From assembly GCA_900314925.1 (NCBI GenBank), contig OMXC01000015.1:1-64000 (forward strand): 64,000 nucleotides of DNA. Reading direction: 5' to 3'. The DNA comes from an uncultured Bacteroidales bacterium (GTDB lineage Bacteria; Bacteroidota; Bacteroidia; Bacteroidales; P3). The notes under the pieces are model-generated. The model did not search any database. It was given only the letters and a program-made list of their open reading frames with translations, and was not told the origin of the DNA. Below, piece by piece: positions 1,759-45,384 of the stretch. The position numbers and the translations under genes are program-made. How positions within the stretch are numbered: the stretch's first letter is position 1; each line of letters starts with the position of its first letter.

Positions 1759-3036
1759 ATGAATACGAGACTGCTCATAACACGCGAGAGTTACCGCTTC
1801 ACTGCGCTGCTGTGGCTCATAGTGCCGCTGCTGGGGGCTGTGCCCTACCTGGCGGCCGGGGTGGTGCCCTCGTTCACCGACGCCCTGTTTGAGTCGGTGA
1901 GCGGCTTCACCACCACGGGCAGCTCGGTGATACTGTCGCCCGAAAGCCTGCCGGCATGGCTGCGCATGTGGCGCGCGCTGACGCAGTGGGTGGGGGGCCT
2001 CGGGCTGGTGCTCTTCATCGTGGCCTTCGTGCCCTCGCTGCGCGCCGGCTCGTCGCAGCTCTACGCCGCCGAGTTCTCGGGCACACAGCAGCGCAAGCTG
2101 CACCCCCACATGTCGCGCAACGTGGCCCGCATGTGGGGCATATACACCTTGATGACGCTCCTCTGCACAGCGGCGCTCTACGCCACCGACAAGCGGAGTG
2201 TCTTCGACAGCGTCTGCCTGGCCATGAGCACCGTGTCGACAGGCGGCTTCATGCCGGCCTCGGGCGGCATGGCGGGCTACGGCACCGGCACCATGATGGT
2301 GCTCACGCTCTTCATGTTCCTCAGCGGCGTCAACGTCGCCATGCTCTACAACCTCTTCACCTTCCACTGGCGCCGCCTGCGGCGCAGCAGCGAGTTCGTG
2401 GTCTACGCCGTCCTCTTCGTGCTGGCGGCGGCGGTATGCACCGTGGCTTTCGCCGCCAAGGGGGCCCCATGGGACACCGCAGCGCGCTACTCGCTGTTCC
2501 ACATAGCCTCTACGGTGTCTACCTGCGGCTTTTACACGGCCACGCCGCCGGAGTGGCCCTTCGTGGCGTCGGTGGTCACCTTCATGCTCATACTCAGCGG
2601 CGCCATGGCGGGCTCCACGGGCGGTGGCCTCAAGCTGCGCCGACTGATGACGCTCTTCATCTACCTGCGCAACTATTTCTCCCGCATGCTGCACCCCAAC
2701 GTGGTCTTCGCCATCAAGATAGACAATCAGGTGGTGCCCGCCGAATATGTGAACAAGATATTCGGCTTCGTCTTCCTGTACATACTCTTCATCATCGGCG
2801 GCGCCTTCGCGCTGACGCTCACCGGCAGCGACATGGCCGACGCCTTCTGCCTCGCCACGGCCAACATCTCCAACCTCGGCCCCACCCCCATCATAGGGAG
2901 CATAGGCGCAGACTTCAGCTACACCCTGCTGCCGTCGGCGGCCAAGTGGGTGCTCATGGTGCTCATGCTCGCCGGCAGGCTTGAGATATTCGCCCTGCTG
3001 GCCATCGTTTCACCCTCTTACTGGAGCAGAAGATGA
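1759..3036 (+). CDS. trkH: Trk/Ktr-type potassium channel subunit, N-terminally short
   Basis: Integral membrane K+ translocating subunit. The four selectivity-filter regions are visible: SGFTTTGSS, STVSTGGF, STVSTCGF and ISNLGPT. The C-terminus ends like TrkH (AGRLEIFALL). At 425 residues it lacks the roughly 60 N-terminal residues (two extra helices) of E. coli-type TrkH and begins about where the first pore motif unit starts, which resembles KtrB. No in-frame ATG, GTG or TTG lies between the trkA stop and this start. It overlaps the next trkH by 4 nt (ATGA), so the two are probably translationally coupled. Confidence 0.9.
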   Translation: MNTRLLITRESYRFTALLWLIVPLLGAVPYLAAGVVPSFTDALFESVSGFTTTGSSVILSPESLPAWLRMWRALTQWVGGLGLVLFIVAFVPSLRAGSSQLYAAEFSGTQQRKLHPHMSRNVARMWGIYTLMTLLCTAALYATDKRSVFDSVCLAMSTVSTGGFMPASGGMAGYGTGTMMVLTLFMFLSGVNVAMLYNLFTFHWRRLRRSSEFVVYAVLFVLAAAVCTVAFAAKGAPWDTAARYSLFHIASTVSTCGFYTATPPEWPFVASVVTFMLILSGAMAGSTGGGLKLRRLMTLFIYLRNYFSRMLHPNVVFAIKIDNQVVPAEYVNKIFGFVFLYILFIIGGAFALTLTGSDMADAFCLATANISNLGPTPIIGSIGADFSYTLLPSAAKWVLMVLMLAGRLEIFALLAIVSPSYWSRR

Positions 3037-4490
3037 AAGGCAGCGACATAAAGGCTCTGTTGCGGTTCATAGGCATCATGCTTGTGGCCGAGGGCGGGCT
3101 GATGTCGCTGTGCCTCGTGCCGGCGCTCCACTTCGCCGACGGCACGGCCGAAGCCATAGGCCTCTGCAGCCTCTTCACCCTCGCGGTGGGGGCGCTGCTG
3201 TGGGTGACCTACGGCCGCTACCGCCGCATCGACGACCGGCGCATGTCGTACCTGCTGGTGGTGCTGCTGTGGCTGGTGCTGGCGCTCTTCGCCGTGCTGC
3301 CGCTGTTGGCCACAGGAGCCTCCACCGACTTCACGGCCGCCGCCTTCGAGGCCATGAGCGGCCTCACGGCGGTGGGCGCCACGGTGTTCCCCGAGGTGGC
3401 CGCGCTGCCGTCGTCGGTACTCCTCTGGCGCAGCATGATGCAGTGGTTCGGCGGCTTCGGCATCGTCCTGTTGGTCTTGGCGCTCTCGCCAAGGCTGGGC
3501 ATCAACAAATACTCGCTCTACACCGCCGAGGCCTCGGGGGCCGACAACACCGGCAAGACGGCCGTGAGCACCGCCGTCACCGTGCGCCGCACCCTCACCA
3601 TTTACCTCGCCCTGACGCTTGTCTTCATCGCCGCGCTCTACATTGCGGGCATGCAGATGTGGGATGCCGTCAACCTCACCTTCACCAACATCTCCTCTGG
3701 AGGCTTCTCCGTGGCCAGCGACAGCATCGCTTCATGCACGCCGGCGCAGCAGTACATACTCGCCGCGGCGATGCTGCTGAGCGGTGTCAACTTCACGCTG
3801 CTCTACCTCTTCTTCACCTTGCGCTGGCGCCAGATAGGGCACAAACTCGACCAGTTCGGCTTCTATATCGGCATCTACGGCGCGGCGGCGCTCTTTGCCG
3901 TGGCCTCGCTGCACTGGCGCATGGACTACCCGTGGGCCGACGCGCTGCGCATAGGTGCCGTGCAGACGGCCAGCGCGCTCACCACCACCGGCAGCGTGGT
4001 GGCCGACACGACGCAGTGGTGGACGCCCCTGTGCTTCGTCCTGCTCACACTCTCCATCTGCGGCGGCATGGCCGGTTCCACTTCCGGCGGTCTCAAGGCT
4101 ATGCGCGTAATCATACTCCTCCGCAACGCCCGCGGCATACTCCGCAACCGCCTTCACCCACACGCTGTGGCCCCGCTGCGCCTCAACGGGCGCCCCGTCA
4201 GCAGCCATATCGTCAACAACGTCATGGTCATCTTCATGGTCTTTGGCGCCACCCTCCTGCTGGGTATCATGGGCCTCATGCTCTGCGGCATCGACGCCAC
4301 ACAGGCCATAGGAGCCTCCGTGGGGTGCCTCACAGGCTTCGGCCCCGGCCTCGGCCCCTCGGGCGGCTTCGGCTCCTATGCCGCCTTCACGCATCCGGCG
4401 ATGTGGCTCTGCACCATGCTCATGCTGCTCGGCCGCCTCGAGTGCATGACAGTCCTTGTCGTCTTCCTGCCGCGCTTCTGGCGCAGGTAA
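3033..4490 (+). CDS. trkH: Trk potassium channel subunit TrkH, full length
   Basis: Second K+ channel subunit of the operon, 485 residues, with the complete N-terminal helices missing from its neighbour. Filter regions read SGLTAVGAT, TNISSGGFS, SALTTTGSV and CLTGFGPG, so the filters differ from those of the first TrkH and the two are not a recent duplication. The C-terminal LLGRLE motif is conserved. TrkH acts as a dimer with a TrkA ring. Two divergent subunits with a 4-nt overlap suggest a heterodimer or two alternative channels, which is inference. Confidence 0.92.
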   Translation: MKGSDIKALLRFIGIMLVAEGGLMSLCLVPALHFADGTAEAIGLCSLFTLAVGALLWVTYGRYRRIDDRRMSYLLVVLLWLVLALFAVLPLLATGASTDFTAAAFEAMSGLTAVGATVFPEVAALPSSVLLWRSMMQWFGGFGIVLLVLALSPRLGINKYSLYTAEASGADNTGKTAVSTAVTVRRTLTIYLALTLVFIAALYIAGMQMWDAVNLTFTNISSGGFSVASDSIASCTPAQQYILAAAMLLSGVNFTLLYLFFTLRWRQIGHKLDQFGFYIGIYGAAALFAVASLHWRMDYPWADALRIGAVQTASALTTTGSVVADTTQWWTPLCFVLLTLSICGGMAGSTSGGLKAMRVIILLRNARGILRNRLHPHAVAPLRLNGRPVSSHIVNNVMVIFMVFGATLLLGIMGLMLCGIDATQAIGASVGCLTGFGPGLGPSGGFGSYAAFTHPAMWLCTMLMLLGRLECMTVLVVFLPRFWRR

Positions 4491-8204: not shown

Positions 8205-9635
8205 ATGAGAAACCAGAATTTTATCGACCGCGACAAGCTCTACGGGATGCTGCAGGACAACGCCCCGACGGAGAGCCAACTGAACGACATCCTCAACAAG
8301 GCCCGCAAGCTCAAAGGCCTTAATCTTGAAGATGTGGCCAAACTGCTGAGCGTGGAGGACGAGGCCGGCATACAGAAGATCCTCGACACCGCCGAATACT
8401 GCAAAGACGAGATCTACGGCCGCCGCCTTGTGCTCTTCGCTCCCATATACACAGGCAACGCCTGCGTCAACAACTGCGTCTACTGCGGTTTCCGCCGCGA
8501 CAACAAAGCCCTCAAGCGTAAGGTGCTCACCATGGATGAGATAGAACAGGAAACGCTGCATCTGCTCCGCATGGGCCACAAGAGGGCCCTGCTCATCTGC
8601 GGCGAAAGCCCCCGCAACAACACCGACTACATGGTCGAGGCCATCCGCCGCACCTACGCCGCCCGCGACGAGAAAGGCAGCACCATACGCCGTATCAACG
8701 TGGAGCTCGCCCCCATGAGCGTCGAAGACTATGCCAAACTCAAAGCCGAGAAGATAGGCACCTACGTGTGCTTCCAGGAGACTTACGACCCCGTGGCCTA
8801 TGCCAAGTACCACCCCGCAGGAACGCCAAAGGCCGACTACCTCTACCGTCTCACCTGCATGGACCGTGCCCAGGAAGGCGGCATCAACGATGTGGGTATA
8901 GGTGCGCTGTTCGGACTGACGGACTACCGCTTCGAGATCCTCGCCATCATGGAGCATGCGCGCCATTTGGAAGAGGACTATGGCTGTGGCCCCCACACGG
9001 TGAGCTTCCCCCGCATAGAACCGGCAGAAGGCACACCCTTCAGCCAGCGTGAAAACATACCGCACCCTGTGAGCGACAAGGACTTCATGAAGATTATCGC
9101 CATCATCCGCATAGCCATGCCCTACACCGGCATAATCATCAGTACCCGTGAACGGCCCGAGCTGCGCGACCAGCTCGTGCGCTACGGCGTCAGCCAGATA
9201 TCTGCGGCCAGCGAGACCAACCCCGGCGGCTACGACGAGGAGGGCGACAAGACTGCCGCCAAACCCTACGAGAAGACAGGCAATACCGGTGCGCAGTTCA
9301 CGCTCGGCGACCACCGCTCGCTCGACGAGGTCATCAGTATGATGATCGACGGCGGCTACATACCGTCATTCTGTACCGGCTGCTACCGCAAAGGGCGCGT
9401 GGGAGCCGACTTCATGGACCTCGCCAAGCCGGGTCTCATCAAGGAATACTGCAAACCCAACGCCATGTTCACCTTCCGCGAGTACCTGGAGGACTATGCC
9501 AGCCCTGCCACCAAGGAGAAAGGTCTGCGCCTGCTGAAGGAACTCACCCAGACTTTCCCGAAAGAAGAACTTAAGAAACGCGTGGAAGGCAACCTCTGCA
9601 AGATAGGCGACGGCGAGCGCGACCTGTACTTCTAA
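8205..9635 (+). CDS. hydG: [FeFe]-hydrogenase maturase HydG (radical SAM tyrosine lyase)
   Basis: Radical SAM enzyme that cleaves tyrosine to supply CO and cyanide for the hydrogenase H-cluster. The 476 residues match the family length. The SAM cluster motif CX3CX2C is at C87, C91 and C94, and the HydG-specific C-terminal CX2CX22C cluster is intact (C390, C393, C416). HydE and HydF are not in the window and must be encoded elsewhere. The structural hydrogenase genes lie 7 kb downstream on the other strand. Confidence 0.97.
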   Translation: MRNQNFIDRDKLYGMLQDNAPTESQLNDILNKARKLKGLNLEDVAKLLSVEDEAGIQKILDTAEYCKDEIYGRRLVLFAPIYTGNACVNNCVYCGFRRDNKALKRKVLTMDEIEQETLHLLRMGHKRALLICGESPRNNTDYMVEAIRRTYAARDEKGSTIRRINVELAPMSVEDYAKLKAEKIGTYVCFQETYDPVAYAKYHPAGTPKADYLYRLTCMDRAQEGGINDVGIGALFGLTDYRFEILAIMEHARHLEEDYGCGPHTVSFPRIEPAEGTPFSQRENIPHPVSDKDFMKIIAIIRIAMPYTGIIISTRERPELRDQLVRYGVSQISAASETNPGGYDEEGDKTAAKPYEKTGNTGAQFTLGDHRSLDEVISMMIDGGYIPSFCTGCYRKGRVGADFMDLAKPGLIKEYCKPNAMFTFREYLEDYASPATKEKGLRLLKELTQTFPKEELKKRVEGNLCKIGDGERDLYF

Positions 9636-16956: not shown

Positions 16957-18750
16957 TTATTTCGTTACTTCCAGTTTGTCGCTCTTGTCGAAGTAGTGGG
17001 TGTGGAGCTGCTCGTGGCTGAGGTGGCCGCAGGGTTCACCGTAGTACTCCTTGTAGATGGCGATGATGTCGGGGTTCTCGTGGCTCTTGCGGATGGGCTT
17101 GCCAGCGTCCTCGCGGTAGATGGCGTCCATACGCTTCTTGATGATGTCGCTCTTGCCGTGGTGGTAGGGCTGGCCGGCGCCGCCGATGCAGCCGCCCGGG
17201 CAGGCCATGACCTCAATGAAGTGGTAGCCGTTGGGGTTGCCGTCGCGGACCTCTTCCATGAGCTTGCGGGCATTCGAGAGACCGTAGCAGATGGCGATCT
17301 TCACGGGCAGGCCGTCGAAGTCGACGGTGGCCTCGCGCACGCTGTCGCCGAAGATGCCGCGGCACTCCTCGAAGTCAATCTTCGGGAGGGTCTTGCCGGT
17401 ATGCACCTCGTAAGCGGTACGGAGGGCAGCCTCCATCACGCCGCCAGTGGCGCCGAAGATGACGGCGGCACCAGTCGACTGGCCGAGAGGGCTGTCGAAG
17501 TCCTCTTCAGGCAGGCTGTTGAGGTCGATGTTGCTCTGCTTGAGCATGTGGGCCAGCTCACGGGTGGTGAGGCTGAAGTTGACATCCTGGTCGGTGCCGT
17601 TGCCGAGCTCCGGACGGGCGCACTCGCTCTTCTTGGCCAGGCAGGGCATGATGGACACGCAGACGACATCCTCGCGCTTCACGCCGATCTTCGGGGCGAA
17701 GTAGTTCTTGGTGACGGCGCCGAACATGCCCTGGGGCGACTTGGCGGTCGAGGGATGGCCGAGCAGGTCGGGGAAGTTCTTCTCGTAGAAGGTGACCCAG
17801 GCGGGGCAGCAGCTGGTAAACATAGGCATCTTGACATCCTTGTCGCCAGCGAGGAGCTGCTTGACGCGGCCGAGGAGCTCGGTGCCTTCCTCCATGATGG
17901 TGAGGTCGGCGCTCCAGTCGGTGTCGAAGACATAGTCGAAGCCGAGACGGCGCAGGGCAGCGGCCATCTTGCCGGTGACGATGGTGCCGGGTTCCATGCC
18001 GAACTCTTCGCCGAGGGCGACGCGGACGGCGGGAGCGGTCTGCACGACGACCTTCTTGGTGGGGTCGGCGAGGGCCTTACGCACGTCGTTGATGTTGTCG
18101 ACGAGGGTGAGGGCACCCACGGGGCAGACCTGGACGCACTGGCCGCAGTTGACGCACGAGCTGTCGCCGAGCTTCTGCTCGAAGGCGGGAGCCACCACCG
18201 AAGGGAAGCCGCGGTTGACGCCGCTCAGGGCGCCCACGCTCTGGAACTTGTTGCACATCTCTTCGCAGCGGCGGCAGTAGACGCACTTGTCCATGTCGCG
18301 GTAGACGCTGAGGGTGGTGTCTTTCTCATAGTGGCTCTGCTCGCCCTTGAAGGGGATCTCGCGGATGCCCATGCGGACGGCGAGGCTCTGCAGCTCGCAG
18401 TCGCCGCTCTTCTCGCACTGGAGACAGTCGTTCGGGTGGTCGCTGAGGATCAGCTCGAGGACGGTCTTGCGGGCGTTGAGGGCGCGGGGTGAGGCGGTGA
18501 GCACCTCCATGCCTTCCACGCAGTCGGTGGCGCAGGCGGGAGCCAGGTTGCGGCGGGGCTTGCCGTTGAAGTCCTTGGTCACCTCGACCATGCAGACGCG
18601 GCATCCGCCAGGTTTGTTTTCAAATTTCATTCCGTCGAGCTCGAAGTAGCAGAGCGTCGGGATGTCGATACCGGCCATGCGGGCAGCTTTCAGGATAGTG
18701 GTGCCTTCGGGGACCTGGATCGCTTTATTATCTATCGTTACGTTGATCAT
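16957..18750 (-). CDS. hydA: [FeFe]-hydrogenase catalytic subunit HydA, multi-cluster NADH-linked type
   Basis: 597-residue catalytic subunit that makes or oxidises H2. In order: N-terminal [2Fe-2S] domain (C34, C50, C53), His-Cys3 [4Fe-4S] site (HPNDCLQCEKSGDC, 105-118), two ferredoxin-type clusters (CVYCRRCEEMC at 156-166; CVNCGQCVQVC at 199-209), then the three H-cluster motifs TSCCPAW (312-318), MPCLAKKSE (368-376) and MACPGGCIGGAGQP (515-528). All ligands are intact. With hydB and hydC it matches the electron-bifurcating trimer that couples NADH and reduced ferredoxin to H2. Bifurcation itself is inferred from subunit content. Confidence 0.97.
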   Translation of the reverse strand: MINVTIDNKAIQVPEGTTILKAARMAGIDIPTLCYFELDGMKFENKPGGCRVCMVEVTKDFNGKPRRNLAPACATDCVEGMEVLTASPRALNARKTVLELILSDHPNDCLQCEKSGDCELQSLAVRMGIREIPFKGEQSHYEKDTTLSVYRDMDKCVYCRRCEEMCNKFQSVGALSGVNRGFPSVVAPAFEQKLGDSSCVNCGQCVQVCPVGALTLVDNINDVRKALADPTKKVVVQTAPAVRVALGEEFGMEPGTIVTGKMAAALRRLGFDYVFDTDWSADLTIMEEGTELLGRVKQLLAGDKDVKMPMFTSCCPAWVTFYEKNFPDLLGHPSTAKSPQGMFGAVTKNYFAPKIGVKREDVVCVSIMPCLAKKSECARPELGNGTDQDVNFSLTTRELAHMLKQSNIDLNSLPEEDFDSPLGQSTGAAVIFGATGGVMEAALRTAYEVHTGKTLPKIDFEECRGIFGDSVREATVDFDGLPVKIAICYGLSNARKLMEEVRDGNPNGYHFIEVMACPGGCIGGAGQPYHHGKSDIIKKRMDAIYREDAGKPIRKSHENPDIIAIYKEYYGEPCGHLSHEQLHTHYFDKSDKLEVTK

Positions 18751-21688: not shown

Positions 21689-24600
21689 TTACTTTTTCAC
21701 AATCTTGCTCACGGCGCCGTCGACGCGGAGCATGTACACGCCGTTCTGGAAGGCGGTGAGGTCGAGCACGTTGGTGCCTGCATTGAGGCTGTAGACGGCC
21801 ACGCTGCGGCCCGAGATGTCGAAGAGAGTGGCTTCGGCGGAACGGCGGGTGCTGACGGTGATGCGTCCGGTCGTGGGGTTGGGGTATATATTCTCGACCA
21901 CGACGGTGGCGTCGGCGATGCCGACAGAGGGCGTGAGCTCGTGGATGACGCCGACACCCGTGAGGTCGAAGCCGCTGCTCTCGAAGGGTGTGGGCCACGG
22001 GTCGTTGATGATGTTGCCGTACTGGTCGCGCGTGGCATAGGCAGGGTCAATGCAGCCCACGACGTCGACGATGCGTACATAGACGATGCTGTCGATGTCG
22101 ATACCGGTGCTGTCGCGGAGCTCTTCGAGGTCGAATGGGGTGCCGTAGCCGATGCGGAACTTACCGGCAAGGTTGTTGAGGTTGGTGGGGTCGGTCTGGC
22201 CGGCGTTGCCCAGCTGGGTGGTGTTCTGCGTGAGGCAGGTGGCGGGGAAGCGCACGAAGCGCTGTCCGTCGGTGCTCACCTCGACGAAGGCCAGTTCGAG
22301 GCTGTTGTCGCTAAAACCGTTCTCGAAGACGGCAAAGTCTGGGCCTTCGCCGTTGCGTATGGGGCGTGCGAAGGTGGCCAGGGCCGAGCCGCCGTCGCCG
22401 AGGCTGACGACAGAGTAGACATTGTTCGGCGTTGCCGGGCCGATGGCGTTGCTCTCGGAGCCCGTAGAGGCGAGGCCGAGGCTGGGGTTGGCGATGTTGC
22501 GCGGTCCGCGGGTGACGCTGACGCCTGTGGCCCAGGCCACGAAGGCCGAGCTGTCGGCTTTGATGGCGTTGCAGCCCTCGGTGCCCACGGCGCCGCAGAA
22601 AGCGCCGGGTTGCGGAGGCGTGGGAGGCTCGGGCGTGGAGCCCGTGGTGTCGGGCACGCTGACGGCGTGGATGGCCATAGGCCACACATAGGTGTACTCC
22701 CAGTAGCTGTAGTCGGCAATCCAGGTGCTGTCGACCTTGACGGCGGCATAAGTGTCGGCGAACTTCACGAAGTCGCCGTTGACGACCTTGTGCTGTCCGG
22801 CGCCGAGCATGGAGGCCACGTGGTTGACGCTCATGCTGAAGTAGATGCTGTAGTCGGCGGGATCGTGGGGCGTGAGGCGCAGGGTGTCGGTGATGAGGGA
22901 GTCGGCATAGAGGAAGTCGCTGATATAGGCGGGGGAGCCGACGTAGCTGAGGCGCGGGTCGGCGGTGGCGATGGCGTCTACGATGTTGCCCACCAGCATG
23001 CTGTCCGACTGGAAGCGGTAGCCCCAAGCCAGCGCGGTGTCGGCCCAGTTGACGGCGAAGACCACCTCGTTCTGGCCCTCGCCAACCCAGTAGAGGATGT
23101 CGGCGGCGGCTATTGTGGCGTCTTCAGGAGCGGGTGTCACAGGGGCGGCGGTGGTGTCGAGGGCCACCGTCAGGTTGTCGATGCCGCAGTAGCGGTTGCC
23201 GGGCCCTGTGGTGCTGGCGGTGGTGCTGGTGACCTGCCAGAGGAAGGCAAGACGGGCATCGTCAGGCATCCCTGCGTAGTCGGCGAAGCGGACGGTGTCG
23301 TGGTGCAGCACGCGGTTGTCGGCAAGCATTGTGTCGAGGCCCACGAAGGACGCTGTGTCGGCGATGACATAACCCACAACGAGCTGGGCGCCGTTGCCGC
23401 TGGTGCGGTGGTCGAAGGTGAGGACCGTCTGCGACAGCGGCTGCTCAAAGGAGGGCAGCATGGCGTAACGGCGTGTGCCTGTGGCGTTCATGTCGGCGAT
23501 GTGGCTGCTGTTGGTGCCGGTATATATCTGGCTGGCGATAAGGCAGAAGTAGGCGTCGTTGGCGCTCACGGCACCAAAGCTGTTGGTGCTGGTGGAATAG
23601 GCCACGCCGCCGAAATAGACAGAGTTAGTGGAGTTGGGGGAGTCGACATACTGGGTGGTGCCGTTGCCGACCATTGTCCAGCAGTCGGGCATCCGGGCGC
23701 CGGCCATGTGGGCGCGGATGCTTTGGTTGCTGACATAGCCGGAGAAGTCGTCGCTGTAAGGCAGCGGCAGGGAGTCGCAAACCACGGGGTCGGGTATGAC
23801 CTGCGGCACAGGTACGGGGGTTGGTGTTGTGGGCCAAGCCTCCTGCATATAATAGCCGCTCTGGAAGTCCCAGCCGTGGGCGGAGTTAAGGTCGCCATAC
23901 TTGAAGACATCGCCGTTGTGCAATGTGCTGGATGCACCGGCATCGGCGCTGACGCCGTTGAGGTTGGTCCACCAGAAGTTGTAACCCATGGCGGGGTCGA
24001 CGGGCGAAAGGCCGAGAGTGTCGCCCTCGTCGGTAACAAAGTGCAGGTCGCCACCCATGGAGGGCGAGCCGACAACCTCGAAGCGGGGGTCGGCGGCGGC
24101 GATTGCGTTGACCATAGCCTCGGCCGTCGTGCTGCCGTTGAAGAGGTAGCCCCAAGCGAAGGCTGTGTCGGGCTGTGCATAGTTGACGATGAAGGCGGCG
24201 CTGTCGGTGCCGCTGCCCACCCAGTAGAGGATGTCGCCGAAGGCGATGGTGGCGTCGACGGTGTCGGCCGGCGTGGTGCCGGGATCGGAGTTCGGGTTGG
24301 TGGCGGCGGTGGCGGTGGTGAGGCTGAAATAGCAGCTGCTACTGATTTCCATCACGTCGCCGTCAGCCATAGCCTGAGAGCCATAGGCGCCAGCATAGCC
24401 GCCGTTGATAGTGTAGCACCAGTAGCTGGCTGACGAGCCGGAGACGAGGGTGCCGTCATCGTAGTAGAAGCCGTTCATCCAGCCAGAGCTGATGCCGGGA
24501 TAACTTGTACGCGAGTCGTAGGTGGCTATGGTGTCGAGCATGTTGGCGGCTGTGGCGCTGCCGTTCCAATGCACACCCCAGGCGAGTGCGAAGTTGTTGC

Positions 24601-24799
24601 CGGAGGGGTTGTCGTCCCAGCCGATGATGACGACAGCGGAGTTGCTGCCGGTGCCCACCCAGTACTGGATGTCAGAGGCTGGGAAGGTCACCGACTTGCG
24701 CTGCGGCAACAGATGACCGTCGTTGTTGTTTTGGCCGTTCATAGTCAGCGGCAGCAGCATGGCCAGTGCCAGCACCGCGTTGCGTAATTTTTTGTTCAT
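21689..24799 (-). CDS. Cobalamin-riboswitch-controlled T9SS surface protein with three repeated modules (candidate B12-binding protein)
   Basis: 1036-residue exported protein. A signal peptide precedes three related modules at residues about 33-170, 185-330 and 570-710, each with a lead such as DILYWVGSGTDSAAF, a heart like FALAWGVHWNGSATAANMLD or FAWGYLFNGSTTAEAMVNAI, DPR/DSR, and a tail with an NG turn and DGDV or NGDF. This layout resembles the DUF4430/transcobalamin C-terminal domain (for example YWCYTINGGYAGAYGSQAM then ADGDVMEI), a resemblance I infer by eye. Residues about 345-560 look like a MAM/cleaved-adhesin domain. Residues about 740-960 hold a conserved surface domain (VSLGDGGSALATF, DFAVFENGFSD). 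The last 70 residues (IYPNPTTGRITVS... YMLRVDGAVSKIVKK) are a T9SS type A signal. The riboswitch upstream points to B12 capture. Confidence 0.85.
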   Translation of the reverse strand: MNKKLRNAVLALAMLLPLTMNGQNNNDGHLLPQRKSVTFPASDIQYWVGTGSNSAVVIIGWDDNPSGNNFALAWGVHWNGSATAANMLDTIATYDSRTSYPGISSGWMNGFYYDDGTLVSGSSASYWCYTINGGYAGAYGSQAMADGDVMEISSSCYFSLTTATAATNPNSDPGTTPADTVDATIAFGDILYWVGSGTDSAAFIVNYAQPDTAFAWGYLFNGSTTAEAMVNAIAAADPRFEVVGSPSMGGDLHFVTDEGDTLGLSPVDPAMGYNFWWTNLNGVSADAGASSTLHNGDVFKYGDLNSAHGWDFQSGYYMQEAWPTTPTPVPVPQVIPDPVVCDSLPLPYSDDFSGYVSNQSIRAHMAGARMPDCWTMVGNGTTQYVDSPNSTNSVYFGGVAYSTSTNSFGAVSANDAYFCLIASQIYTGTNSSHIADMNATGTRRYAMLPSFEQPLSQTVLTFDHRTSGNGAQLVVGYVIADTASFVGLDTMLADNRVLHHDTVRFADYAGMPDDARLAFLWQVTSTTASTTGPGNRYCGIDNLTVALDTTAAPVTPAPEDATIAAADILYWVGEGQNEVVFAVNWADTALAWGYRFQSDSMLVGNIVDAIATADPRLSYVGSPAYISDFLYADSLITDTLRLTPHDPADYSIYFSMSVNHVASMLGAGQHKVVNGDFVKFADTYAAVKVDSTWIADYSYWEYTYVWPMAIHAVSVPDTTGSTPEPPTPPQPGAFCGAVGTEGCNAIKADSSAFVAWATGVSVTRGPRNIANPSLGLASTGSESNAIGPATPNNVYSVVSLGDGGSALATFARPIRNGEGPDFAVFENGFSDNSLELAFVEVSTDGQRFVRFPATCLTQNTTQLGNAGQTDPTNLNNLAGKFRIGYGTPFDLEELRDSTGIDIDSIVYVRIVDVVGCIDPAYATRDQYGNIINDPWPTPFESSGFDLTGVGVIHELTPSVGIADATVVVENIYPNPTTGRITVSTRRSAEATLFDISGRSVAVYSLNAGTNVLDLTAFQNGVYMLRVDGAVSKIVKK

Positions 24800-24993
24800 T
24801 CCTTTATAGCGTTATATTATAGTTTATACTTTTTTTCATACCCACATACGTGCCGATGGCCGACGAAACAAACGCCGAAGCAACCGGCAGGCAGAGCCTT
24901 CGGTCATGGGATGGATAGAAAAAGAATGTCTTGCCGTGAAGAACATTAGTTTCGACAAACCGCCTTTGACGCGAAAGCATTGCCAAAAAGGCT

Positions 24994-25108
24994 TCAAGGC
25001 AGGTACTCTGGCTTGTCCCGTTGCTACCGGGACTTACAGTTGCGCGACAGCTCGCGATTTTCACGCGATTCCCCTCTTTGCCTCCGCTGTCAGGCGGAGA
25101 GACCTTGA
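24994..25108 (-). promoter_or_regulatory. Cobalamin riboswitch
   Basis: Read on the minus strand: P1 half TCAAGG, hairpin CTCCGCCTGACAGCGGAG, then AAAGAGGGGAATCGCGTGAAAA-type core, GCTGTCGCGCAACTGTAA, hairpin GTCCCGGTAGCAACGGGAC, AAGCCAGAGTACCTGCC and the closing P1 half CCTTGA. These are the diagnostic conserved blocks of the cobalamin aptamer in the right order. It sits in the 5' leader of the surface protein gene, about 195 nt before the start codon. The expression platform is not obvious; translational control in the long leader is likely. Confidence 0.95.
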
Positions 25109-25176
25109 CACCATTATCAACTCAAAGCACTGACGCAATGGTCGTTGTGCAACATCATCACATATCCATTGCGCTG

Positions 25177-25207
25177 CAAAGATACAAAATAAAATCAATA
25201 CACCAAA
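25177..25207 (-). promoter_or_regulatory. Promoter driving the riboswitch leader
   Basis: On the minus strand TTTG (25204-25207), a 19-nt spacer and TATCTTTG (25177-25184) are an exact Bacteroidota promoter. The leader from here to the start codon is about 370 nt. Confidence 0.85.
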
Positions 25208-35902: not shown

Positions 35903-37408
35903 ATGCCCCAAAAGAAAAACACAGTAGAGGAAATCGGCAGCAGCAGGGAGCTTTACAACTTCCTGTATGAGGCTTGCAACATACTCCGTGGACCGGTGTC
36001 GCAGGATGCTTTCAAGGAATATATCACGCCGCTGCTCTATTTCAAGCGCATCAGCGATGTGTATGACGAGGAGTCGAAGGCGGCTCTGGAGCTGTCTGGT
36101 GGCGATGAGGAATTTGCTTTGCTTCCCGAGCAGCACCGCTTCGTCATTCCCGAAGGGTGCCATTGGGAGGATGTGCGTCAGCGCACGACAGACATCGGTA
36201 GCGCCATCATCGGCGCTATGCGTCAGATTGAGCTAGCTAACCCCATGACGCTGTATGGCGTGCTCAGCGTCTTCTCCACCGCCAACTGGAGCAACAAGAA
36301 CGTCTTCAGCGACGAGAAGCTGCGCGACCTCATCGAGCATATGAGCAAGCGCCGCTTGGGCAACAACGACTACGCCGCCGACCTGATGGGCGACGCCTAC
36401 GAGATGCTGCTGAAGAAGTTCGCCGACCTCTCGAAAGCCAAAGCAGGCGAGTTCTACACCCCGCGTCCCGTGGTGCGGCTGCTGGTGCGCATCCTCGACC
36501 CCCAACCGGGCGAAACCGTCTATGACCCCGCCTGCGGATCGGGCGGTATGCTGATAGAGGCCGTCCACCACATGAAGAACGACGCACAATGCTGCGGCGC
36601 CATCTTCGGACAGGAGAAGAACGTCACCAACGCCGCTGTTGCCAAGATGAACCTCTTCCTGCACGGCGCCAACGATTTCAACATCATGTGTGGCGACACC
36701 CTGCGCGACCCCAAGATATTGCAGAACGAACACATCGCCCATTTCGACTGTGTGATAGCCAATCCACCATTCTCGTTGGAGAACTGGGGTGCCGAAGCCT
36801 GGAAGACCGACCGCTTCGGGCGCAACCTGTGGGGCACCCCGTCGGACAAGAACGGCGACTACGCTTGGCTTCAGCATATGGTGAGCAGTATGCGCAGCCT
36901 CACGGGCCGTATGGCCGTTGTGCTACCGCAGGGAGTGCTGTTCCGCGGCAACGAAGAGGGCCGTATGCGCGAAAGCCTGGTGAAGAGCGACTGCCTGGAG
37001 GCCGTCGTCACCCTCGGCGACAAACTCTTCTACGGCACAGGCCTCTCGCCCTGCTTTCTCGTGATACGCAGCCAGAAACCCGAAGCCCACAAAGGCAAGG
37101 TGCTGATGATTGACGGCACCAAGATCCTCACCCAGCAGCGCGCGCAGAACATCCTCAGCGACGCCGATGTGGACGAACTCTACCGCCTCTACAGCGCCTA
37201 CGGCGACGAGGAGGACAAGAGCATCGTCGTCACCCTCGACCAGATTGCCGAGAAAGGTTACGACCTCTCGCCCAACAAATATGTGAACTACCACAAGGAA
37301 ACGGTGCGTCCCTATGCCGAAGTGCTGGCTGAGTTCAAGGCCGCCTATCGGCAGATGGTCGCTGCCGAGGAGAACCTCCGTACCATCCTAAACCGTGAAG
37401 CCGTATGA
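35903..37408 (+). CDS. hsdM: Type I restriction-modification DNA methyltransferase subunit (first HsdM)
   Basis: 501-residue N6-adenine methyltransferase. HsdM N-terminal helical domain (residues 10-150), SAM-binding motif DPACGSGGM (208-216) and catalytic NPPF (287-290) are intact. GC-rich like the chromosome. It has no HsdS partner of its own; instead a second methyltransferase gene overlaps its end by 4 nt (ATGA). It may pair with the second HsdM or share its HsdS. Confidence 0.95.
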   Translation: MPQKKNTVEEIGSSRELYNFLYEACNILRGPVSQDAFKEYITPLLYFKRISDVYDEESKAALELSGGDEEFALLPEQHRFVIPEGCHWEDVRQRTTDIGSAIIGAMRQIELANPMTLYGVLSVFSTANWSNKNVFSDEKLRDLIEHMSKRRLGNNDYAADLMGDAYEMLLKKFADLSKAKAGEFYTPRPVVRLLVRILDPQPGETVYDPACGSGGMLIEAVHHMKNDAQCCGAIFGQEKNVTNAAVAKMNLFLHGANDFNIMCGDTLRDPKILQNEHIAHFDCVIANPPFSLENWGAEAWKTDRFGRNLWGTPSDKNGDYAWLQHMVSSMRSLTGRMAVVLPQGVLFRGNEEGRMRESLVKSDCLEAVVTLGDKLFYGTGLSPCFLVIRSQKPEAHKGKVLMIDGTKILTQQRAQNILSDADVDELYRLYSAYGDEEDKSIVVTLDQIAEKGYDLSPNKYVNYHKETVRPYAEVLAEFKAAYRQMVAAEENLRTILNREAV

Positions 37409-40092
37409 CGAAACAGATCACTCTCGACGAACTGGAAAGCTATCTCTGGCAAGCGGCTGTCGACCTGCGCGGCCAGATAGATGCGGCTGCCTACAAAGAC
37501 TATATCTTCCCGCTGGTCTTCTTCAAGCGCATCTGCGATGTGCGCGACGAGGAGTATGCCGGCTACGAGAAAGAAGGTGGCAAAGAATATGCCGATATGA
37601 TGATACAGGAGTCGGCCATCCAGATACCCGCCGACGCCCATTGGCAGGTGGTCTTCAACAAGACCGAGAATATCGGTCAGGCTTTGGTGGATGCCTTCCT
37701 CAGCATCGAGCAGGCCAATCCCGGCAAGAAAATCGACGACCGCGTGGTGGGTGGTTTGGACGGCATCTTTGGCGACAAAGCCATCTGGACGAACAAGAAC
37801 AAGATGCCCGATGCCGTCATCCGCAACCTGCTAAACAGCTTCAACAAGCTCACGCTGAGTTTGGCCGCCTGTCCTGCCGACGAGATGGGCACGGGATATG
37901 AATACCTCATCGGCAAGTTTGCCGACGATGCCGGCCACACGGCGCAGGAATTCTACACCAACCGCACGGTGGTGGAGCTGATGGCCGAGATACTGCAGCT
38001 GAAGCCCCACGAGAGCATCTACGACCCCACCTGCGGCAGCGGCGGTATGTTGATCAAAAGCCTAACCCACTTGAAGGACAAAGGCGAGGAATGGCGCGAT
38101 GTGAAAGTCTTTGGCCAGGAGATCAATGCCGGCACCGCCGCCATTGCCCGTATGAACCTGTATCTGCATGGCATACATGATTTCTCTATTGTGAATGACG
38201 ATACCCTTGAACGTCCGGCATTCACCAATGGAGGCCGGGTGCAACAGTTCGATGTAGTGCTGGCCAATCCGCCATATAGCATCAAAACTTGGAACAGAGA
38301 GATGTTTGCTCATGATAAGTATGGAAGAAACTTCTTAGGTGTTCCACCACAGGCGAGAGCTGACTATGCTTTTATCCAACATATTCTTGCTTCGATGGAT
38401 GAAAAAAATGGTCGTTGTGCTGTTCTCCTTCCTCATGGAGTGCTTAATAGGGATGAAGAGGTAGAAATGCGAAAAAGACATATAGAGTCCGATAATATTG
38501 ATGCAATTATTGGTTTAGGACGTAATTTGTTCTTTAATTCAGGCTTAGAATCCTTCATCCTCTTATGTAGTAACAGGAAACCTAAAGAAAGAAAGGGTAA
38601 AATATTATTTATCGAAGCAGAGAATTATACCCATAAGGAAGGAAAACAAGCCTATCTATGGCCAGAAGATATTGCCAAGATAGTTCATGCATATAACAAT
38701 CTTGATGATGAAGAAGGCTTCTCAAAATGGGTTAGAATTGAAGATGTTGAAGATGGTAACTTGAACATTAAGAGTTATGTAAAATCTGTATCAAACAAAG
38801 AAAAATCTTCTTTTAAAGCAGATGTTACGGAATACGTAGATCAACAACATTTGCTTGCAGACGCATTGAAAGATTTTGAACTTTTGGATTCTGAGATTTT
38901 CAAAATAGACATAAATCCAAACACCTCTTATAATAAAACAAATTGGAAACGGGTGAAACTTGGCGATGTGGCTTATGAGTATTCTTCAAGAGTTGATAAT
39001 CCTTCTGAATCGCAATACGACTACTACATAGGTTCTGATTGCATTGGTCAATATGATTTTAGAATAAACAAGAAAAGCCCAGCAGGTTTAGTTACTTCGG
39101 CACAAAAAGAGTTTAAAAGTGGAGATTATCTTTTGGTAAGAAGGAGTCTCTATGGTAGCGATTTTCGTGAAAGGGCGCCTCGTGCAGACTTCGACGGCTG
39201 CTGCTCTGCTGATATTCTTACAATTAGAGAAAATCCTGAATATATAAGTGATGGCTATTTAATCAATGTTCTTTATAGTAAAGAATTGTGGGATTTTATT
39301 GTTGCAAATTCAGCTGGAGGTTTAACACGTCGTATTAAGTGGAAGCAGATTGCTGACTTTGAATTTGACCTTCCATCCCTTGCAGAGCAAAAAGTTTTGG
39401 CAGAGAAGCTTTGGGCAGCATACGAAGTGAAGCTGTCATATCTGAAAATGATTGAGGCTACACAAGAGATGGTTAAATCGCAATTTATCGAGATGTTTGG
39501 AGATATATCTATAAACTCCAAAGCCTGGCCTGTTGAGAAATTAGCAAATGTAGCAAACATCAAAATTGGTCCCTTTGGTTCCTTGATACATCAACGTGAT
39601 TATCAGGAGGGTGGCCATTGCTTAATAAATCCCTCGCAGATTATAAATAACAAGATAGTTCCAGATAGCAAAGTTGCTGTTACAGAATACAAATACCAAG
39701 AATTGTTGTCTTATACAGTTTCGATTGGAGATATAATTCTTGGTAGAAGAGGCGAAATGGGTAGAGCAGGTATTATAGAGGAGGAAGGAATGCTATGCGG
39801 CACTGGAAGTATGGTAATAAAGCCAAAAGACAAGGGTGATTCTCTATTTCTGCATCTTTTTATAACTTCTCCACACAGCAAGGAATGGCTTGAAAACAAT
39901 TCGGTTGGCACAACTATGACGAACCTTAACACTCAGATTGTCGCGAATATGGAAATACCAATCCTCCCTGCTAATCTAAAGCAGCAGTTTGTCGCCATCA
40001 CTAATCAGGCCGATAAATCAGTATTTGAATTGCGTAAATCGATAGACGCAATAGATAAAGTCATCAAGTCACTCATCAACGAAAACCTGTAA
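37405..40092 (+). CDS. HsdM-HsdS fusion: type I methyltransferase joined to specificity subunit
   Basis: 895 residues. Residues 1-480 are a second, distinct HsdM (DPTCGSGGM at 207-215, NPPY at 288-291, intact). From about 510 the chain continues as HsdS with two target-recognition domains (TRD1 from WKRVKLGDVAYEYSS, about 514-680; TRD2 from WPVEKLANVANIKIGPFGS, about 708-870), each followed by a helical spacer (LAEQKVLAEKLWAAYEVKL and LKQQFVAITNQADKS). The first 880 nt are GC-rich; from about 38285, inside the methyltransferase domain, the DNA becomes AT-rich to the end, a sign of recombination that brought in a new specificity. Confidence 0.93.
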   Translation: MTKQITLDELESYLWQAAVDLRGQIDAAAYKDYIFPLVFFKRICDVRDEEYAGYEKEGGKEYADMMIQESAIQIPADAHWQVVFNKTENIGQALVDAFLSIEQANPGKKIDDRVVGGLDGIFGDKAIWTNKNKMPDAVIRNLLNSFNKLTLSLAACPADEMGTGYEYLIGKFADDAGHTAQEFYTNRTVVELMAEILQLKPHESIYDPTCGSGGMLIKSLTHLKDKGEEWRDVKVFGQEINAGTAAIARMNLYLHGIHDFSIVNDDTLERPAFTNGGRVQQFDVVLANPPYSIKTWNREMFAHDKYGRNFLGVPPQARADYAFIQHILASMDEKNGRCAVLLPHGVLNRDEEVEMRKRHIESDNIDAIIGLGRNLFFNSGLESFILLCSNRKPKERKGKILFIEAENYTHKEGKQAYLWPEDIAKIVHAYNNLDDEEGFSKWVRIEDVEDGNLNIKSYVKSVSNKEKSSFKADVTEYVDQQHLLADALKDFELLDSEIFKIDINPNTSYNKTNWKRVKLGDVAYEYSSRVDNPSESQYDYYIGSDCIGQYDFRINKKSPAGLVTSAQKEFKSGDYLLVRRSLYGSDFRERAPRADFDGCCSADILTIRENPEYISDGYLINVLYSKELWDFIVANSAGGLTRRIKWKQIADFEFDLPSLAEQKVLAEKLWAAYEVKLSYLKMIEATQEMVKSQFIEMFGDISINSKAWPVEKLANVANIKIGPFGSLIHQRDYQEGGHCLINPSQIINNKIVPDSKVAVTEYKYQELLSYTVSIGDIILGRRGEMGRAGIIEEEGMLCGTGSMVIKPKDKGDSLFLHLFITSPHSKEWLENNSVGTTMTNLNTQIVANMEIPILPANLKQQFVAITNQADKSVFELRKSIDAIDKVIKSLINENL

Positions 40093-40096
40093 AGAT

Positions 40097-41779
40097 ATGG
40101 AAAGTTATCACGACATATTAAAACATCTGCTTGCTCATTCGGAAAACGAAGTGGTCGAGTTTAAGTCCGCACGAAATAGTTATGATATAGATGATCTGGG
40201 GAAATATTTCTCGGCATTGAGCAATGAGGCGAATCTTCGTGAGCACGAATATGCATGGATTGTTTTCGGTATAGACAATAAAACTCACGAAATAACAGGT
40301 ACACACTTCAAAGATGGCGAGGATGCACTCAACAGGTTGAAACAAGATATGTCGCAACATACAACCGACAATCTTATATTTCGCGAGATTACTCCTATCA
40401 TTCTCGATAGTAAGCGAGTGTTGATGTTCAAAATACCTGCCACACCTCGCAATATCGTAATGCATTGGAAGGGGATAGCATGGTCCCGAGACGGAGAAAG
40501 CCTGAAACCACTGAACCAAACAAAACGCGATGAGATTCGGAATCAGTCGCCAATACCAGATTGGACAGCACAACTTGTGCCTCACGCCACCATTGCAGAC
40601 CTTGACGAGTTGGCTCTTGCAACAGCCAGAGTAATGTATAAGAAGGTGCATGGATCAAATATCTCGGGAGAGGAAGTGGATGGTTGGAATATGGAAGAAT
40701 TTCTGAGCAACAGCAATATGATGCGTGATGGACAGCTTACGCGAGCTGCGATATTACTTCTTGGTAAACCATTGTCGTTGAATAAAATCCACCCAGCCGT
40801 AGCACAAATCACATGGACACTGCAAGATGAAGAAGAGATAGTGGAGGATTATGAGCACTTCTCAATACCTTTTTTGTTGACGGTAGATAAAGTATTGGCA
40901 AAGATTCGTAACAGAACTATGCGAGAGTTGCCCGGAGGGACACTGTTTCCAGATACTATGAAGCAGTATGATGACTACACAATACGAGAGGCTTTGCATA
41001 ATGCCATAGCACATCAGGACTATACATTACAGCAACGAATTGTATTTGTGGAAAGTCCAAGCTGGTTGTATTATGGCAATGGCGGTACTTTTATACCCGG
41101 TACGATAGAAAATGCTCTCGAGCACAAAGGTCCACAACTGCATTATCGCAACGAGTGTCTATGCAAAGGCATGGTGCATTTCAATATGATTGACACCGTG
41201 GGACGTGGAATTAAGAAGATATACACAGAGCAGCGAAACCGATTTTTCCCGATGCCAGACTATGACATAGATAACGAGAACAAGACGGTCGGTGTAACCA
41301 TATACGGCAAGATGCTTGATGAGAAATATTCGGAACTGCTGAAGAGCGGTAACCAACTCACATTGAAGGAATGCATCTGGCTTGATGCCGTTCAAAAACA
41401 CCGTCCCATCACAAAAGACGCAATAGAACACTTGAAGAGTCGAAAATTAATAGAAGGACGAGGGGCAAACGTAACAATTTCATTAGGTGTGGCAAGACTC
41501 ACTCACCAAGTTGCCCAATACACAAAAAATAAAGGTTTGGCATACGATGCGTTGAAAAAGTTGATTTTGCAATTGGCCCATAATGCTGGAGAAGGTGGCT
41601 TTAAACGCTCAGAGGCATTTGAGGCTTTGGAAAATAGTTTGCCACAGAACAAATCCCACAATGCAAAACTTGTTTATTTGGGACGAGTGCTTGTTAAGAT
41701 GAGTGAAGAAGGTTTATTAATACCGAACGGAAGAAAATGGAATATTACAGCTGAGGGATCAAAGGATTTTCGGTTATAA
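40097..41779 (+). CDS. AlbA_2/Schlafen-type ATP-binding protein with C-terminal winged helix
   Basis: 560 residues. The N-terminal AlbA_2 domain starts with SENEVVEFKSARNSYDIDDL; a GHKL-like ATPase core is seen around residues 285-400 (YTIREALHNAIAHQDYT, GTIENALEHKG, VGRGIKKIYTEQ); the C-terminal 130 residues look like winged helices. Such proteins are frequent between hsdS and hsdR genes and are thought to regulate or assist the system; the activity here is unproven. It starts 4 nt after the fusion gene, in the same AT-rich block. Confidence 0.85.
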   Translation: MESYHDILKHLLAHSENEVVEFKSARNSYDIDDLGKYFSALSNEANLREHEYAWIVFGIDNKTHEITGTHFKDGEDALNRLKQDMSQHTTDNLIFREITPIILDSKRVLMFKIPATPRNIVMHWKGIAWSRDGESLKPLNQTKRDEIRNQSPIPDWTAQLVPHATIADLDELALATARVMYKKVHGSNISGEEVDGWNMEEFLSNSNMMRDGQLTRAAILLLGKPLSLNKIHPAVAQITWTLQDEEEIVEDYEHFSIPFLLTVDKVLAKIRNRTMRELPGGTLFPDTMKQYDDYTIREALHNAIAHQDYTLQQRIVFVESPSWLYYGNGGTFIPGTIENALEHKGPQLHYRNECLCKGMVHFNMIDTVGRGIKKIYTEQRNRFFPMPDYDIDNENKTVGVTIYGKMLDEKYSELLKSGNQLTLKECIWLDAVQKHRPITKDAIEHLKSRKLIEGRGANVTISLGVARLTHQVAQYTKNKGLAYDALKKLILQLAHNAGEGGFKRSEAFEALENSLPQNKSHNAKLVYLGRVLVKMSEEGLLIPNGRKWNITAEGSKDFRL

Positions 41780-41901
41780 TTCGTTTATAAACCAAGTATC
41801 AAATCGAGTATAATAAAACCCAGTAAATTTACAAGGTATTAATATACAGATATTAGCAACACTAATCACTATCAAATTCGTTTATAAATTCGTTTATAAA
41901 T
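41778..41901. repeat. Three copies of AATTCGTTTATAAA before hsdR
   Basis: Copies start at 41778, 41875 and 41888; the first overlaps the stop of the AlbA_2 gene and the last two are in tandem. They border the AT-rich to GC-rich transition between the AlbA_2 gene and hsdR. Confidence 0.85.
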
Positions 41902-41922
41902 TAAAAATAAGGAAAGGCCACT

Positions 41923-44900
41923 ATGGCATACTTCAACGAAGACAACGTAACTGAGCAGATGTGCATAGGCATAGCGCAGAAAGCGGGCTACACCTATTGC
42001 GAGGCCGACACCTTGCGCGAGGATAAGTCTACGGTCATCGTGGACAAGCTGCTGCTGGAGGCCCTGAAGAGAATCAACAAGATCAGCGACGAGGAGGCAC
42101 AGATAGTGGTGCAGAAGGTGAAAGCCCGCATCGCCGGCGGCATGGGCGGCGACATCATAACAGCCAACCAGAACCTGCGCAAGCTCTTCTTCGACGAGAA
42201 CAGTTTTCCTTTTGGCAAGAAGGGCGAATATGTGACGATAAACTTCTTCGACACCAATCCCAAGACGCACAAGCAGAACAACAGCTATGTGGTGACCAAC
42301 CAATGGGAATACCCCAAGAGCTCGTATGCCGGAGGAAAGAGGCTCGATGTGGTGCTGCTCATCAACGGCATCCCGATGGTGATTGTGGAGGCCAAGACGG
42401 CCGTCAACGCCAGCGTCACCTGGGCCGACGGAGCAAAAGACATAGTCGACTACCAGAAGTCGTTGCCCGAGATGTTCGTGCCCAATATCCTCAGCATAGC
42501 CACCGAGGGCAAGGAGCTCTACTACGGCAGCATCGGCGCCCCGCTGACGAAATGGGGTCCTTGGTTCGCCAACGAGCAACGCGAACACGGCGACCTGAAG
42601 AGTGTGCAGAAGAACCTCGCCAGCTTGATAGACCCCCTGCGGCTGCTGGACATCTACCGCTTCTTCTCGGTTTTCACCACCGACAAGAAGTCGTCGAGGA
42701 AAATCAAGGTGGTGTGCCGCTATCAGCAATACTACGGTGGAATGGCCATCGTGAACCGCGTGATGGCCCGCACCAAGACGGGTATAGGCCCCAAGAAAGG
42801 TCTCATATGGCACTTCCAGGGGTCGGGCAAATCGTGGCTGATGGTGTTCGCCTCGCAGATGCTGATGAAGAAACAGGAGCTGAACGCCCCCACGGTGGTC
42901 ATCGTCGACGACCGTCGCGACCTGCGGGCACAGATTACGGGCGACTTCACCCGCGCCGAGATACCCAACCTCGACTTCGCCTACACCAAAGAAGAGCTGA
43001 AGACCTTCTTCCAGCAAGACCAGCGCAAGATTCTCATCACCACCATCTTCCTCTTTGGCGACGTGAGAGAAGCGCTGAACATGCGCGAGAACATCATCCT
43101 ACTGGTCGACGAAGCCCATCGTACACAGGAGGGCGACCTGGGCGAATGTATGCGCGTGGCACTCCCCAACGCCTTCTTCTTCGGATTGACGGGCACGCCC
43201 ATCAACAAGCGCGACCACAATACCTTCAACTGCTTCGGTGCCGAAGAGGATCATGGCGGATACATGTCGAAATACACCTTCCAAGACTCCATCGACGATG
43301 GCGCCACCTTGGAGCTGAACTTCCGCGAAGTCCCCGTGGAGATGCACCTCGACGATGCCAACCTGCAGGCCTCCTTCGACGAGATGGCTCGCGAGAACAA
43401 CCTCACCGACGAGGAGAAAGACCAACTCACCAAAGGTACTAAGGTAGAAGCTTTCTTCACCGCCCCGAAACGCATACACGAGGTGTGTATGCACATCGTG
43501 GAGCACTACCGCAAATACATCCGTCCCACCGGCTTGAAATGCCAGGTGGTGGTGTACAACCGCGCCTGCTGTGTAGCCTACAAGAAAGAACTCGACACGT
43601 TGCTAAAGGACAGCGGCGACGAGACAGCCATCGTGATGCACACCAGCGGCGACAAGAGCAACGAGTATGCCGAATACAAACTTTCCGAATTCGAGCAGGA
43701 AAGACTGCTGGACAAATTCCGCGACCCTCTGTCGCCGTTGAAGTTTGTCATCGTCACCAGCAAACTGCTGACGGGATTCGATGCTCCCATCCTGCAATGC
43801 ATGTACCTCGACAAGCCGATGAAGGACCACACGCTGCTGCAAGCCGTATGCCGCACCAACCGCGTATACGAGGCCAAGAAGAAATGCGGAATGATAGTGG
43901 ATTATGTGGGTGTGTTCGACAACTATGCAAAGGCGCTGAACTTCGACGAAGAGTCGGTAAAGACCGTCATTACCAACATCAACGAAGTGAAAGACAAGAT
44001 TCCCGGATGGCTACAAGACTGTCTGGATTTCTTCCCCGGAGTGGACAGAAGCATTGGAGGCTTCCAAGGGCTGGAGGATGCGCAAGAAAAACTGCGTGAC
44101 GAAAACGTGAAGACACAGTTCGGCGCCAACTTCCAGCGGCTGCATAAAGCGTGGGAGGTGGTGTCGCCCGACAACGACATCTTGCAATACAAGAACGACT
44201 ACATCTGGCTGAGTCAGGTGTACGAGAGCGTGCGTCCCGTGAACCCGTCAGGCAGCCTGATATGGACCATTCTCGGTCCAAAGACCATAGAGCTGATACA
44301 CGAGAACGTGACCTCTATCGACATCGGAGAGAGCATCGAAGACCTTGTGGTGGACAGCAAGATTTTGGACGAGTGCATCAAGGACAACAACAAGCGCAAC
44401 CGCACCATCATCGAGATTCAGAAGATGCTGAAGCTGCGATTGGGCAACCCTAAGCACAACAACTCAAAAGAATTCAAGCGACTGACGGAGAAACTTAAAG
44501 AACTGCAAGAGCGCTTGCGACAGCAACAGATAGACAGCATTCAGTTCCTGAAAGACCTGCTGGCGTTGGCCAAAGAGACTCTGGAAGTGGAACAGAAGTT
44601 GGAACAGCCGCAGGATCGCCGCCAACAAGCTCGCGCCGCGCTGACGGAACTTTTCGAGAGCATCAAGACCCCGCAGACCCCCATCGTGGTGGAGAATGTG
44701 GTCAACGACATCGACTCCAATGTGGTGGATATCGTGCGACGCTTCAACAATGCCTTCAAGACCGTCTCCGGGCAGCAGGAGGTACGCAAGATGCTGCGCA
44801 CAATACTCTGGCTGAAATACAAAATCAAAGACAGCGATGTGTTTGAGAAGGCGTACAAATATGTGGAGATGTACTATTACCCAGGCGGCAACGGCCCAAC

Positions 44901-45009: not shown

Positions 45010-45340
45010 AGGCTGTTTTCTCCACTCCGTCAACAGAATATATGAGAAATATGGAACAAGTAAATAAATGCGTGAATGTGTAAATCTTGAACAATTGATT
45101 GCTTAAACTGAGGTCGGCGGTATGGTTAAGGGTTCATGGTTAAGGGTTAAGGGGACAAATAGAATGCGTAAATGCAATATAAATGTGTGAATGCGTGTGC
45201 CGAAGGCTGCGAGCCGGAGGCCATGAGTACCTTGAAAATAGATATAATGCAGCGAATAACACCTTTGAAATTAATTAATGAAGTGAGTCAATGTGTAAAT
45301 GTGTAAGTGAAAATTGAATATTTATTTTAAATAAAACCCG
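45010..45340. other. Gene-free AT-rich stretch with short words
   Basis: Contains repeated GTTAAGGGTT/ATGGTTAAGG words at 45121-45155 and several AAATGCGTGAATGTG-like words. No gene seen. An ordinary spacer with simple repeats, possibly decayed DNA. Confidence 0.5.
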
Positions 45341-45348
45341 TATCTTTG
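45341..45348 (+). promoter_or_regulatory. -7 element of the YhcG-like gene promoter
   Basis: TATCTTTG preceded by ATAAAACCCG; the same AAAACCC-G-TATCT context recurs before the two gene remnants at 46540-46560 and 46896-46916. Confidence 0.65.
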
Positions 45349-45384
45349 CATAGTGTTTTCTATAGATATTTAAGATAAAAAAAC

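Follow-up and report, generated by a model that had tools for sequence, protein, structure and literature searches.

The closest described systems for surface capture of cobalamin (vitamin B12) are BtuG, BtuH, and BtuJ, which are lipoproteins according to the excerpts consulted of PMC6143338, PMC8941943, and PMC12751083. BtuH, represented by BtuH2 and by the BtuH domain of BtuG1 in Bacteroides thetaiotaomicron, is a lipoprotein that occurs with PKD domains or alone. We analyzed a 64,000-nt stretch of DNA from an uncultured Bacteroidales bacterium (contig OMXC01000015.1; hereafter the window), with a minus-strand gene for a 1036-residue protein that is likely a surface corrinoid-capture protein, made at low B12 and binding B12 outside the cell via a BtuH-like domain and probably also via repeated modules. 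This reading builds on results of the analysis itself: an aptamer, the arrangement of the elements, a repeat and a sorting tail in the protein, folds as predicted, and, among relatives, a statistical association with riboswitches. On the minus strand, a promoter-like element is followed by a cobalamin aptamer and then by the gene; its product has a signal-peptide-like start, modules 1 and 2, a MAM-like stretch, module 3, a further domain (the C domain), and a sorting tail of the type IX secretion system (T9SS):

25177-25207, minus strand: Bacteroidota-type promoter TTTG-N19-TATCTTTG (pattern match)
24981-25122, minus strand: cobalamin riboswitch aptamer (RF00174, 65.6 bits, E 5.8e-14)
24800-24980, minus strand: leader from the aptamer to the start codon, putative expression platform (by position)
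21689-24799, minus strand: surface-protein gene, 1036 aa (open reading frame listing)
24734-24799, minus strand: N-terminal signal-peptide-like stretch, residues 1-22 (judged by eye from the sequence)
24302-24691, minus strand: module 1, transcobalamin beta-domain-like, residues 37-166 (predicted structure)
23828-24253, minus strand: module 2, residues 183-324 (same repeat family by sequence)
23144-23782, minus strand: MAM/choice-of-anchor-J-like stretch, residues 340-552, cut by eye (a unit in relatives)
22664-23119, minus strand: module 3, transcobalamin beta-domain-like, residues 561-712 (predicted structure)
21929-22600, minus strand: C domain, BtuH-like fold, no Pfam family, residues 734-957, cut by eye (predicted structure)
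21692-21889, minus strand: T9SS type A sorting tail, residues 971-1036 (PF18962, TIGR04183)

An earlier sequence-only reading of this DNA (the original prediction) had described a 1036-residue minus-strand protein with three module copies and a T9SS type A tail; the open reading frame, the alignment of the copies, and the tail matches (PF18962, 39.8 bits with a cut-off of 27; TIGR04183, 38.1 bits with a cut-off of 23) confirm it. Up to E 1, PF18962 and PF14478 were the only Pfam families that the protein matched. We found 556 homologues at E ≤ 0.001, and the domain counts given below for relatives cover the 120 listed of them; all 120 contain the C domain and at least one module.

The C domain, which the original prediction overlooked, is the part of the protein most likely to bind B12: its predicted structure matches BtuH2 best, and its predicted fold is that of the BtuH B12-binding domain. 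Three of the BtuH contact residues were mapped onto 38 C domains: the equivalent of Asn399 is kept in all 38, that of Phe401 is Phe in 29, and the Gln at the presumed Gln333 position is not kept. Comparison with BtuH by hhalign gave 92% over a short stretch, 48 of 223 columns, and the PDB sequence search gave no match to BtuH2. Since the best weak match of the C profile is an M14 peptidase, and the profile matches M14 peptidases as readily as BtuH, we dropped the sequence link to BtuH as proof of function. On the 38 C domains Pfam gave only weak rows, among them DHQ_synthase, which matched 8 domains with a best E of 0.005. The stretches weakly matched by the C profile lie in Peptidase M14 proteins at three loci (L102, L103, and L105), with a T9SS tail over the cut-off in two of four, and no cobalamin riboswitch was found near them in the fetched DNA.

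Three copies of the module align with one another (modules 2 and 1 share 44% and 32% identity with module 3, respectively). The best structural matches for predicted modules 1 and 3 are transcobalamin-type beta domains, whose fold they are predicted to share; similarity in sequence places module 2 in the same family. A resemblance to the DUF4430/transcobalamin layout had been proposed, and it stands for modules 1 and 3 by predicted structure and for module 2 by sequence similarity to these two; the profile test was borderline: the whole protein has a single PF14478 match of 23.8 bits, exactly the cut-off, over 29 residues, and module 3 alone scores below the cut-off. Among 44 module copies, 14 matched PF14478 at E ≤ 1, the best of them at 2.1e-6; a six-frame search of the protein's own genome gave no PF14478 match; the alpha-alpha barrel cobalamin-binding domain of the transcobalamin family was absent from the Pfam scan. 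The likeness to both BtuH and transcobalamin emerges only via predicted structure, as the PDB sequence search with the whole protein and three profiles returned nothing but T9SS tails and weak rows attributable to chance. With Foldseek by itself neither link fell below E 0.001, and VIA-align re-examined candidates that Foldseek had already picked. Relatives carry one to seven modules each, the single-copy case being a fragment. In the same genome, one module also lies in a 1910-aa protein beside five fibronectin III stretches (G000:C4, L136:2074-7806, minus strand); the contig of this protein has none of the genome's cobalamin riboswitches, so the module also occurs outside a B12 setting.

The aptamer score compares with an RF00174 gathering score of 31.5 bits, and the match encloses the aptamer originally placed at 24994-25108, so the Rfam search clearly bears out that call. 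The start codon follows after 181 nt. The aptamer would be expected to bind its ligand and to control the gene. The promoter was also present where proposed, with 5 pattern matches in the 64-kb window against 0.25 expected, but was overrated as an exact promoter: in L008, the closest among the relatives fetched (from uncultured Bacteroidales genome RUG377), the TATCTTTG half (-7) is kept and the TTTG box (-33) is not, which rules out the -33 box as a conserved element. The leader is 95% identical to that of L008, but carries no evidence of its own because the coding sequence is equally close (94%); its folds are not clearly better than those of shuffled sequences. A scan and folding for terminator or translational control favored neither: there is one terminator-like site on this strand, at 24889-24873, while shuffled versions of the region yield 1.2 sites when both strands are counted.

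We considered 80 named loci with C-domain genes, left out 9 in which the gene runs off the end, and counted 71. A cobalamin riboswitch lies upstream of the C-domain gene at 50 of the 71, comprising 28 of 33 loci with modules (at L030 it overlaps an over-extended start) and 22 of the 38 that lack them; among the 21 riboswitch-less loci, 14 had more than 2 kb of upstream DNA. At 25 loci the distance to the riboswitch exceeds 0.4 kb, and the 24 intermediate genes found there include 16 with modules (at L025 in another frame), 4 encoding DUF5074, 2 encoding DUF4465 with a T9SS tail, and 2 encoding other T9SS proteins. Because the same pair occurs both fused and split, we suggest that the modules and the C domain work together. 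A strong C match was found in 42 of 149 genomes of the order, and 33 of the 40 re-searched had a same-strand riboswitch within 4 kb upstream, compared with 0.04 expected at random places; the same held for 17 of 20 module rows. Modules lie within 0.7 kb behind cobalamin riboswitches in G109:C3, G060:C10, G082:C39, and G085:C81, three of them in open reading frames of more than 1000 aa; a strong C match is missing from three of these genomes, and in G082 it lies on another contig. At L104:1003-2917, in the same genome family as the window, a cobalamin riboswitch precedes a 532-aa fusion of the C domain, DUF4465 (the BtuJ family), and a T9SS tail, and DUF4465 (BtuJ-type) proteins with T9SS tails stand behind cobalamin riboswitches, adjoining C-domain genes, at L057:1913-2920 and L078:1628-2893.

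At E ≤ 0.001, searching with the C domain alone returned at least 7824 proteins, counting fragments, with lengths of 123-392 aa. Eight were inspected: three carry a T9SS tail or take their name from one, and the other five, short and with an early Cys, are lipoprotein-like. Among the 149 genomes, the C domain was found in 42, BtuH in 29, and both in 2 (Fisher P 0.005, confounded by ancestry and omitting two BtuH matches with E-values of 7e-5 and 1e-4), as if one had replaced the other.

Direct reading of the protein gave no Cys within the first 40 residues, and hence no lipoprotein signal of the BtuH kind. Components of the T9SS are encoded in the same window:

54905-56107, minus strand: PorV, T9SS component (PF19572, E 1.6e-59)
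56160-59468, minus strand: Peptidase_C25 adjoining porV, PorU-like sortase by family and position (PF01364, E 3.4e-77)

These agree with the earlier placement of PorU and PorV in the window; the protein, with its sorting tail, would be exported to the surface via the T9SS. The proposed MAM-like domain had no Pfam match; it occurs as a unit in 85 of the 120 listed relatives, one of which (P0063) carries the source name “choice-of-anchor J”.

The 2.4 Mb genome contains four cobalamin riboswitches and only one C domain; BtuH was not found in it, and DUF4465 (PF14717) was found neither in it nor in the 1036-aa protein. Elsewhere in this genome, cobalamin riboswitches lie by a TonB-dependent receptor gene (BtuB-like by place) and a DUF5074 (BtuG-like) gene (G000 C16, L005), by an acetyl-CoA hydrolase/transferase gene (G000 C13, L006), and by an anaerobic ribonucleotide reductase gene (G000 C21, L007). 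The genome encodes methylmalonyl-CoA mutase and therefore has a use for B12.

The original prediction of a T9SS-delivered multi-module B12 trap is supported, and we consider this reading, in which the protein would bind B12, likely. B12 scarcity would let the gene, presumably repressed by B12, be expressed; the protein would cross the inner membrane through Sec, then the outer membrane through the T9SS, where the PorU-like sortase may cut off the tail. The BtuH-like domain and the modules could then hold several corrinoids per chain, and the cargo might be passed to the TonB-dependent receptor and DUF5074 protein encoded behind the other riboswitch, the imported B12 presumably feeding B12-dependent enzymes such as methylmalonyl-CoA mutase.

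Alternatively, B12 may be bound by the BtuH-like domain alone, with the modules forming a stalk that spaces it from the membrane or a docking surface to the transporter. Their variable, spacer-like number, the copy in the fibronectin-type protein on a contig without a cobalamin riboswitch, and the PKD domains ahead of the binding domain in BtuH2 (per an excerpt of PMC8941943) would all fit; but 16 of the 24 intermediate genes encode modules on their own behind a riboswitch, an arrangement for which a simple stalk would have no need, and PDB entry 5np4, by its title, is the isolated human beta domain solved with cyanocobalamin, so we regard this alternative as rather unlikely. We think it less probable still that the protein is a released decoy, carrying B12 back like a siderophore or denying it to competitors, instead of an anchored trap: T9SS cargo can be either released or anchored (PMC10202324, in the part consulted) and B. 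thetaiotaomicron employs vesicle-borne BtuJ in siderophore-like fashion (PMC12751083, likewise), but the sequence holds nothing to tell release from anchoring. An adhesin, carbohydrate-binding, or other surface protein merely tracking B12 status in its expression seems very unlikely, as it would sit poorly with the structural matches of the C domain to BtuH2 and of modules 1 and 3 to transcobalamin-type beta domains, and with operon partners and a fusion partner drawn from B12-binding families.

The window also encodes a Type I restriction system at 35903-46509 (two HsdM-like genes, of which the second matches specificity subunits, together with HsdR and a YhcG-type nuclease), two adjoining open reading frames in different frames at 1759-4490, each matching TrkH cation transporters, and genes for [FeFe] hydrogenase, namely the maturase HydG and the hydrogenase large subunit (at 8205-9635 and 16957-18750, respectively).

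If the surface corrinoid-capture protein binds B12, corrinoid capture would have the T9SS as a second route of delivery, beside lipoproteins; a function would become known for a domain family of thousands of relatives that has no entry in Pfam; the beta domain of vertebrate transcobalamin would have counterparts in bacteria, directly under B12 control; and the finding would be relevant to competition for B12 in the rumen and gut. A broader proposal, quite possible but tentative, is that the Bacteroidota have their own secreted transcobalamin: widespread riboswitch-controlled, T9SS-exported, multi-site corrinoid traps, combining tandem transcobalamin-beta-type modules with a new BtuH-like family, that replace BtuH lipoproteins in T9SS-bearing lineages and share ancestry with the B12-gripping domain of the vertebrate carriers. 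Among the matches listed in a literature search, none by its title or the start of its abstract joins the T9SS with B12 capture, nor DUF4430 with B12 uptake in the Bacteroidota, and by word search the terms T9SS and type IX are absent from PMC8941943, PMC12751083, PMC10404256, and PMC13398666. Surface B12 capture is known; what would set this case apart is the export route, the module set, and the unnamed domain family.

Compared with known systems, the protein is neither BtuJ nor BtuG, as it has no DUF4465 or DUF5074 match. It shares with BtuJ the B12-riboswitch operons, in which DUF4465 is sometimes a neighbor gene or fusion partner of relatives; DUF5074 beta-propeller lipoproteins (BtuG) are encoded by a neighbor gene in four relatives, and the genome's own copy lies beside the TonB-dependent receptor. 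The R. gnavus protein RUMGNA_00854 (3u7z) is a single small domain, titled a putative metal-binding protein. Modules 1 and 3 are predicted to have the fold of the beta domain (PF14478/DUF4430) of vertebrate transcobalamin, intrinsic factor, and haptocorrin, whereas the window protein is bacterial, lacks the alpha-alpha barrel, and has tandem copies and a T9SS tail. Unlike BtuH, to which its sequence likeness covers 48 columns only, without the presumed Gln333, it has transcobalamin-like modules and a T9SS tail and lacks a lipobox; it would be a T9SS-delivered counterpart of the BtuH lipoproteins of Bacteroides.
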